Positions 15,699 to 16,850 of a stretch of DNA of 64,000 nucleotides are shown in pieces. The first letter of the stretch is position 1. Every line of letters starts with the position of its first letter. A program made the position numbers and the translations under genes. The DNA comes from Lunularia cruciata. Its lineage: Eukaryota > Streptophyta > Marchantiopsida > Lunulariales > Lunulariaceae. Location: positions 19,444,243 to 19,508,242 of the forward strand of contig OX419761.1 in assembly GCA_948567375.1 (NCBI GenBank), in the 5' to 3' direction. Below the pieces are notes generated by a model. That model searched no databases and was not told the origin of the DNA. It worked only from the letters and a program-made list of their open reading frames with translations.

Positions 15699-16850
15699 GA
15701 TGATGCTTGGATGCCTTTGACATTGTTGGAATAGTAGTAATATCAATGCAAAAACCCGCCCGCTCTCTCTCATCGGTGTTAGGCTCCACCAACTACTACA
15801 ACTGTGAGTCCCAAACCAGTCCAAGACCTCCTTCTCAAAAAGCATGAGAGCATGGGAAACTCATAAGTGTGGGAAAAGCAACTCTAGGCTGTCCAACTAG
15901 GTTCACCACTGCCATAGATGGACCTATCAATTTCTACCACCATCTAAGACTAATGCCCAACATCCAAGATGTCATCAATAATGATGTGGTCTAGTCGTTG
16001 AATCCCATCATAAGCGCATTGTAGAACCTCTCTAGGTAAGAGGTTTGTCCACCAAAGCTGAAGATAATGAGCTCGTGATCCCACTCTAGTTGCATCTAAC
16101 AATACAATAGGTCCCATCCAAGAATGGACCTGATGGGTACTTGCCACCACTCTAGTGCAAGAATCACCCGTCAAAGGAATGTTTTCCAAAAGTTAAGCTA
16201 GAGAAATGGATTGATGAACTTAGAGATGTTGAAGTATTTGTAACATCTCCCAAAACACATAAGAATAGGTATCTTGAAGATCCAAATCTTGGCCAACACG
16301 TTTATGTTCCTCACATAGCCATCTAGCAATGACCAAGTGAATGAGACCATGTCTCTCCAAGTCTTGCACTCCCAACAAGGAAATATTTGTTAGTAGGGTC
16401 TTCTAGTAACCCCTAATTGTTGACATTAGTAATAACTCAAGATACTGATAAGCCAAGTGTGCCACATGATGGAGAGAGACTCGCCTAGCAATCTCATCTC
16501 TCTCAACATACAAGTACCTATATACTCGTATACTTGCCTATAGGACCATAGCTAATCTGGTGCTAATCCCACCAAACAACTCCAATAGATATACTCCCTC
16601 TACTAGATACTGCCAAGCAATGAGTGTAGTATCCAAAGGTGTCAAGGTTACTGACGTTGGAGGCTCATCCTCACACTCATCTCCTAGTAGTACAAAGGTT
16701 CCACTCCAAGCTTGCTACACCAACCGATTTGCATATTGTTGCAAAGCCTCCTCTGAACTCCACAATAGAATATCCAAGGTGGATGGAACAATCCAACTTG
16801 TACTCCAAATCTGAGTGATCTCCTTTGGTACTGAAATATCCTCTACATGG
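15699..16850 (-). pseudogene. Cytosine-5 DNA methyltransferase domain (DNMT3-like) in element D pol
   Basis: On the minus strand one frame from about 16640 to 15957 gives the C5-methyltransferase motifs in order: I (LLELFGGIST, 16559-16582), II (YVERDE), IV (LVIARWLCEEH, catalytic Cys codon TGT at 16313-16315; the Pro of the usual PC is Leu), VI (LLENIPLTGD, near 16180), VIII (VGSRAHYLQLWWTNL, about 16040-16084). After a frame change it continues with VNLVGQPRVAFPT and EPNTDERERAGF (15870-15720), matching the target-recognition end and motif IX/X region; the last helix lies at 8583-8640. SRAHYLQLWWTNL resembles the SAAHRARYFWGNL of DNMT3 enzymes. Five in-frame stops (TAG/TAA) lie in the first frame. 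The block sits between protease and RT, so it was part of the polyprotein. It would have methylated cytosines in DNA. Confidence 0.85.

Follow-up and report, generated by a model that had tools for sequence, protein, structure and literature searches.

A Ty3/Gypsy retroelement with a DNMT3-type cytosine-5 methyltransferase and a putative leaky stop codon in the liverwort Lunularia cruciata

The stretch analysed, hereafter the window, comprises 64,000 nucleotides of contig OX419761.1 (assembly GCA_948567375.1, positions 19,444,243 to 19,508,242) of the liverwort Lunularia cruciata, a species with a 580-Mb assembly and bursts of Ty3/Gypsy elements (PMC9985172). Its minus strand carries, between about 35.3 and 3.6 kb, a Ty3/Gypsy element split by at least four later insertions, and the segment 15697-16642, continued at 8584-8658, is recognisable as a dead DNMT3-type cytosine-5 DNA methyltransferase (DNMT) belonging to it. 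In copies with long open reading frames (ORFs), ORF1 encodes Gag, protease and the DNMT, and ORF2 encodes reverse transcriptase (RT), RNase H, integrase and a PHD finger; both lie in one frame, parted by a single TAG. An earlier sequence-only reading of this DNA had proposed a continuous element with the order protease-DNMT-RT and a terminal PHD finger. The gene order stood, while the continuity did not, the element being interrupted by the insertions.

Reading the minus-strand frames of 13500-19000 with their stops showed that the motifs quoted in that reading (ELFGGIST, LVIARWLCEEH, LLENIPL and SRAHYLQLWWTNL) are all present in one frame, at about 16600-16000, and that GQPRVAFPT and DERERAGF follow in a second frame, after a frameshift near 15920. 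Pfam profiles gave no match on the broken window pieces, even with X replacing each stop, so the identity was shown through relatives with open frames. The 1428-aa ORF1 of an open copy aligned by tblastn with 17620-15920 (residues 660-1226, 72% identity), 15915-15697 (residues 1228-1301), 8658-8584 (residues 1297-1321) and 7905-7570 (residues 1317-1428). The displaced last helix that had been proposed is real; its protein match is short (25 residues, 68%, E 1.15e-4), and a blastn match covers 8649-8583. Between 16717 and 15946 the first frame of the window copy is broken by seven stops, of which six fall within the DNMT; more come after the frameshift, and the 2.1-kb protease-DNMT piece has 19 indel columns. 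Motif IV reads WLCEE against WPCQG in open copies; with its Pro and Gln lost, the catalytic Cys is the sole survivor of that block. A DNMT-bearing Gypsy element was rightly recognised, but the window copy is a pseudogene and not an intact enzyme, and the leaky-stop context of the UAG, the split repeats and the copy number had been missed.

The genome searched comprised 566 Mb in 74 contigs, of which eight large ones (60 to 85 Mb) hold about 558 Mb. A search with the DNA_methylase profile gave 2161 first-look candidates; 123 were scored and listed, all above the cut-off, and these are spread over all eight large contigs. Some of the listed matches are not the element: judged by eye, the top one is an exon of a host DNMT3, with DNMT3s of Marchantia and Riccia as its nearest proteins, and the second is a DRM-like frame. 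Most of the others match about positions 48-120 of the profile and lie in frames no longer than 1428 codons. Twelve loci with long frames were fetched at length and 40 further copies were taken from the listed matches, giving 52 copies read. The DNMT domain was open end to end in 12 of the 52 (nine of the 12 long-frame picks and three of the 40 others), and all 12 have the PCQ motif. Copies L009 and L010 carry the full 1428-codon ORF1 frame and copies L013 and L014 the full 1037-codon ORF2 frame.

Analysis of the open frames placed RVT_1, RT_RNaseH, Integrase_H2C2 and rve in this order in ORF2, with the PHD finger at the C-terminus, and the DNA_methylase domain in ORF1 of L009 and L010 (30.5 and 31.2 bits against a Pfam cut-off of 22). 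No Pfam Gag family matched ORF1 above its cut-off, and CCHC-like zinc-knuckle motifs were read by eye in the Gag part. The protease motif LLD.GAQP was found in 11 of 15 loci, as LLDSGAQP in ten and with F in place of S in L010. The element is a Ty3/Gypsy element by its Pol order, rve integrase, zinc-knuckle Gag and protease, TG...CA termini and short target duplication. Among solved structures, the best sequence relatives of the PHD finger are those of CHD4, KMT2D, an MLL3 homolog, PHF12, DPF2/DPF3 and KDM5B.

A profile built from eight DNMT domains of open relatives matched DNMT3A first among solved structures (E 7.6e-21), together with DNMT3B, then DRM2 and then HaeIII and HhaI, which upholds the DNMT3-like assignment made earlier. 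The DRM2 chains matched only the first part of the profile. What we take to be motifs I, IV, VI, VIII, IX and X stand in the canonical, unpermuted order, and a DRM identity was rejected on this ground. Across the eight aligned domains the Cys and Gln of motif IV, the Glu of motif VI and the AHRxR block do not vary. Such invariance argues against the proposal that the fold persists for nucleic-acid binding or as a structural component of the particle, having lost its importance as a methyltransferase. A structural role would fit the place of the domain on the Gag side, the WECQ or TECQ found in motif IV of some algal relatives (P0091, P0120) and the failure of the Klebsormidium domain, itself inconclusive, to methylate in yeast (PMC5890265), but we regard it as quite improbable.

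Pooled ratios of nonsynonymous to synonymous differences per site (pN/pS), taken only from copies with the domain open, which lowers them, were 0.42 for the DNMT (10 copies), 0.44 for RT (7), 0.12 for Gag (6), 0.46 for protease (13), 0.27 for RNase H (7) and 0.25 for the PHD finger (12). The integrase value (0.71, with a largest pairwise dS of 2.1) was not used; a nested second Gypsy element in copy L020 had probably been taken with it as one copy. A deeper comparison is with the DNMT of L031, which shows 52% identity across residues 1-341. Here dN was 0.45 and synonymous sites were saturated (189.7 of 254.2 differ), so the DNMT has long been constrained.

Protein searches returned 53 proteins for the liverwort DNMT, 112 for an algal-type DNMT, the two sets overlapping, and 41 for the host DNMT3 exon. 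Among the 53 relatives of the liverwort DNMT, 14 are named as Marchantia polymorpha and one as Sphagnum fallax; these relatives, together with the Marchantia and Riccia DNMT3s that best match the host exon, support the earlier claim of such an element in a land-plant genome. The algal-type query added Monoraphidium, Cymbomonas and many metagenomic polyproteins, and no protein named as Klebsormidium was among the matches to these two queries. In the metagenomic proteins P0027 and P0049 the polyprotein extends beyond the PHD finger and contains, by eye, a DPW(C/A)-type motif that might belong to another methyltransferase. L031 is a 9.3-kb contig filed under a cyanobacterial metagenome-assembled genome, probably as a eukaryotic contamination of that bin; it carries Gag-protease-DNMT and RT frames and was the sole relative among 218 matches to one pattern in genome contigs. 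On these scans a bacterial source was rejected, and so was a viral one: no relative was found among 25 pattern matches in viral contigs scanned with the DNMT profile, a weak negative since one short pattern was used.

Domain order in 144 element proteins placed the DNMT after RNase H in 99 and before RT or RNase H in nine, the remaining 36 having too few domains to be readable; as far as these proteins can be read, the liverwort type is one of at least two DNMT layouts. A DNMT tree of 97 rows was rooted at its midpoint, without DNMT1, bacterial or viral outgroups, and its large algal group was represented by 34 rows, 30 drawn at random plus the named ones, after thinning. Domains shorter than 310 residues or holding X were dropped, including Sphagnum P0026, and several long rows were flagged by the program. 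The 60 element DNMTs fell on one side of a branch with a Shimodaira-Hasegawa-like approximate likelihood ratio (SH-aLRT) support of 99 and 29 DNMT3-like plant proteins on another branch (support 90), so that in this tree the element-borne domains stand apart from the plant proteins. Metagenomic P0175, P0180 and P0183 were nearest to the elements (support 87). Within the elements the two layouts separated with 89 each, and the long rows P0052 and P0055 stood apart.

The RT tree (41 rows, the algal group thinned to 27) had only two outgroups lacking a DNMT, both of them elements of the window. The algal layout formed one clade (98/97), and the DNMT-bearing rows split from the two DNMT-less window elements (99/97); copy L020, whose row was labelled as lacking a DNMT, belongs to the DNMT-bearing family. 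Because outgroups were few and the rows thinned, monophyly among Gypsy elements as a whole cannot be read from this tree. The agreement of the DNMT and RT trees in outline favours, with these few outgroups, a single acquisition after which the domain moved. Local capture of a host DNMT3 or DRM gene at the window site, for which nothing speaks beyond similarity, is hardly credible and was rejected. The copies lie on all eight large contigs, other copies carry the same block in the same place, contrary to the possibility raised earlier that they might lack it, and the element DNMTs lie apart from the 29 plant proteins (SH-aLRT 99).

Of 15 copies in which the ends were sought, 11 yielded both. 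In all 11 the left end begins with a repeat A of about 450 bp and the right end is B-A-B, with B of 107 bp, giving the layout A-coding-B-A-B with termini TGTC...GACA. Two equal full-length long terminal repeats were absent from these copies, A alone standing at the left and B-A-B at the right, which makes the element a split-repeat variant of Ty3/Gypsy. A 4-bp target duplication was present in seven of the 11. Among the four others, one is older (A1 and A2 88.2% identical), and another (L078/L079) has two right-end repeat sets, the farther of which was used. Identity of A1 to A2 was 88.2 to 99.7% in the copies measured, some of them partly, and the upper values indicate that some insertions are young. 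A DIRS or PAT tyrosine-recombinase identity was rejected on the rve integrase and the 4-bp duplications, as DIRS and PAT elements are not known to make target duplications.

In one copy examined, a run of G lies immediately 5' of B1, where the plus-strand primer would lie. With the run at this position the inserted form looks permuted relative to the cDNA of ordinary reverse transcription, which would point to a circular intermediate. A primer-binding site was sought by eye 3' of A1, where ATCAGAG alone, as a candidate, fits the initiator-Met site. In L014 and L021, A1 ends with AATCTGATTA and is followed directly by CATCAGAG, which places the A1 boundary in the loop of a small hairpin with a possible role in priming.

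Of the 52 copies, 51 had a readable junction between ORF1 and ORF2. TAG was present in 50 of the 51 and was followed by CARYYA in 49, and TAG CAG CCA occurred at all 10 junctions located by protein pattern in the first 12 loci. Plant viruses are the chief known users of UAG CAR YYA, the type I readthrough signal (PMC11166343, PMC4132726). The motif is common to the element and to viruses such as tobacco mosaic virus; it differs here in standing between the DNMT and RT of a retroelement, where it is seen as a sequence motif. With an open frame on both sides it is, by sequence, a type I leaky-stop motif. In L031 the two frames recur, and the junction between them reads AAG TAG CAA TCA: the stop and CARYYA have been kept while the spelling changed (CAA UCA against CAG CCA). 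It is conceivable that the in-frame UAG is a chance mutation that became fixed, or is bypassed by splicing, and that ORF1 and ORF2 form no readthrough pair. Since the copies are young, all of them would share any stop of their source copy, and two Marchantia gene models (P0008, P0014) fuse DNMT and RT in one predicted protein. These models are predictions, however, a random hexamer fits CARYYA once in 512 by simple counting, and the differently spelled signal at the same boundary in L031 also speaks against chance; we give this explanation little credence.

The reading that we favour, with modest confidence, is that the leaky stop gives a Gag-level dose of DNMT and that the enzyme probably methylates the cDNA of the element itself. 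Going by the signal, most ribosomes would halt at the UAG, the methyltransferase being made with Gag in large amounts, and the few that read through would yield the polymerase and integrase. The position of the DNMT on the Gag side favours action inside the particle: there the protease may free it, and it could methylate new double-stranded cDNA before integration, probably at CG. Least surely, the mark might disguise the new copy as host-marked DNA or cause it to be treated like such DNA. Copies would then be silenced by the host through CG and CHG methylation and would decay by deamination. A precedent for activity comes from the DIRS elements of Symbiodinium, for whose DNMT domains de novo CG methylation was shown in yeast, and de Mendoza et al. 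discuss cDNA marking, protection and self-restraint through slowed transposition as options (PMC5890265).

Several observations weigh against this proposal. The element is known here through its sequence, and in none of the 12 long-frame copies are both ORFs open at full length. Because the copies are only about 1.7% divergent around the junction, conservation of the stop within the genome is weak evidence, and the deep comparison of its context consists of one relative, L031. In most relatives with readable order the DNMT follows RNase H in one frame, so a Gag-level dose is not general. The Klebsormidium DNMT, the only Gypsy one tested, produced no methylation in yeast, a result that its authors call inconclusive (PMC5890265). 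The pN/pS values come from open-frame copies, with RT no lower than the DNMT, and four of the 11 copies with both ends lack a target duplication.

The decay of the window copy bears on where the enzyme acts. Compared with the majority of 11 copies, its protease-DNMT piece differed at 331 of 2114 counted sites, and 224 of the 331 differences were C>T or G>A; these transitions affected 54 of 126 CG, 96 of 275 CHG and 74 of 709 CHH sites. By sequence this is the deamination pattern of a copy methylated by the host at CG and CHG. The enzyme could instead act on the host genome, whether at sites of insertion, in other elements or in the element's own integrated copies, and thereby restrain transposition and spare the host, with the PHD finger steering insertions to a chromatin state. 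DNMT3 enzymes methylate chromatin, the polyprotein also bears the PHD finger akin to those of CHD4, KMT2D, PHF12 and KDM5B, and the window copy shows these CG and CHG marks. CHG decay, however, points to host chromomethylases and not to DNMT3, the stop codon would part the PHD finger from most of the DNMT, and the family reached many copies. Although slowed transposition is among the options listed by de Mendoza et al. (PMC5890265), we consider action on the host genome unlikely and keep methylation of the element's own cDNA as the preferred reading.

As the earlier reading had stated, retroelements with a DNMT were known before, a Gypsy element with DNMT3 from a charophyte and others from dinoflagellates (PMC5890265). 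KnitGypsy-Dnmt3 of Klebsormidium nitens (de Mendoza et al. 2018, PMC5890265) shares with the liverwort element the Ty3/Gypsy domains, a Dnmt3 in the polyprotein, repeats of the A-coding-B-A-B type, described there as DIRS-like, and a DNMT under purifying selection. It differs in its algal host and in its fewer copies; compared by description only, its main text names no PHD finger, and no mention of a readthrough stop was seen in the parts consulted. Since this kind has been described, the liverwort element is best read as a land-plant variant of it and not as a new kind. SymbioDIRS-Dnmt3 and SymbioLINE-Dnmt of Symbiodinium are likewise retroelements bearing a DNMT, the former with a Dnmt3 type and split repeats as here and with CG activity shown in yeast (PMC5890265). 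These elements use tyrosine recombinase or LINE machinery, whereas the liverwort element encodes an rve integrase of the DDE type, has TG...CA termini and produces a 4-bp target duplication.

The green-algal and metagenomic Gypsy polyproteins with a DNMT (among P0027-P0145, including P0091 of Monoraphidium and P0120 of Cymbomonas) belong to the same DNMT clade and have RT, RNase H, integrase and mostly a PHD finger, but their DNMT lies mostly between RNase H and integrase. Likened at the protein level, Mp_4g09160 (P0003) of Marchantia polymorpha is a Gag-protease-DNMT protein with a DNMT 74% identical to that of the element; most of the Marchantia relatives are listed as hypothetical proteins. 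In the open-access literature searched for retroelement DNMTs of bryophytes and algae, including PMC8616336, PMC9516144, PMC12344493, PMC10952607, PMC6453930, PMC6338049 and PMC10508981, we found no report of one in a liverwort or moss. Morozov et al. (2019, PMC6338049) include green algae and further groups in their list of retroelements with a methylase, state that land plants lack such transposons and build their hypothesis on this absence. The sequences found here contradict that view for liverworts and, by way of a single decayed protein, also for Sphagnum.

DNA methylation is directed chiefly at transposons, so a transposon that makes the mark itself reverses the usual story. The family described here has many copies, some of them recent, in a land plant, with relatives in the standard laboratory plant Marchantia. 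The leaky-stop motif yields a simple dose prediction, and the differing positions of the DNMT within one clade provide a natural comparison. Tentatively, and as a possibility that we would not yet rank as probable, split-repeat elements, with a probable circular or permuted DNA form, may have allied themselves repeatedly with DNA methyltransferases: a Dam-type enzyme in DIRS, and DNMT3 in SymbioDIRS, in KnitGypsy and here. The land-plant leaky stop would then supply many enzymes per particle, the DNA would be methylated before integration and the PHD finger of the integrase would read the target chromatin, all from a single old acquisition kept and amplified from green algae to liverworts.

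The features of the window element and of the insertions nested in it are collected in Table 1.

Table 1. Parts of the DNMT-bearing element of the window and the insertions that interrupt it
Feature	Positions	Strand	Evidence or remark
5' terminal repeat A1	34888..35312	-	blastn with repeat A of another copy, 84.9% identity
Untranslated leader	34056..34887	-	blastn, copy L014 1-865 and 903-1319 to 35275-34407 and 34457-34056
Leader end and Gag part of ORF1	25608..27749	-	DNA match 27749-25644; tblastn ORF1 6-600 to 27320-25608, three pieces
Spacer and protease part of ORF1	16643..17848	-	window LLDYGV*P, open copies LLDSGAQP
DNMT3-type C5 methyltransferase, residues 986-1301	15697..16642	-	pseudogenised; 6 stops in first frame, further ones after frameshift
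Methyltransferase last helix, displaced by insertion	8584..8658	-	tblastn and DNA match
ORF1 end, downstream of methyltransferase	7570..7905	-	tblastn ORF1 residues 1317-1428, 71%
In-frame TAG CAG CCA, motif UAG-CAR-YYA, at ORF1/ORF2 boundary	7561..7569	-	sequence
ORF2: RT, RNase H, integrase, PHD (~4461-4592)	4461..7566	-	tblastn ORF2 1-1037 in pieces; Pfam domains of open copies
Internal repeat B1	4185..4291	-	blastn 88.8%
Repeat A2	3759..4182	-	blastn 82.1%
3' terminal repeat B2, decayed	3585..3739	-	two partial blastn matches
Nested insertion, leader/Gag	27750..34055		end direct repeats 27739-28482 and 33308-34052; borders approximate
Nested insertion, Gag/protease: another Gypsy element, plus strand	17849..25643		borders approximate
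Nested insertion cutting methyltransferase	8659..15692		direct repeats near 15.2-15.7 kb and 8.1-8.6 kb; borders approximate
Short nested insertion inside methyltransferase end	7906..8582		borders approximate

The second Gypsy element inside the DNMT element (about 17842-25650, plus strand) has long open frames at 20082-21707 and 22416-24254. At 8934-9497, within a later insertion, the window contains a solo A-B repeat of the DNMT-element family (91 and 97% identical), the product expected from recombination between A1 and A2. Elsewhere in the window, 55181-58023 consists of inverted arms of about 1 kb that are 83-87% complementary and lie 764 bases apart.
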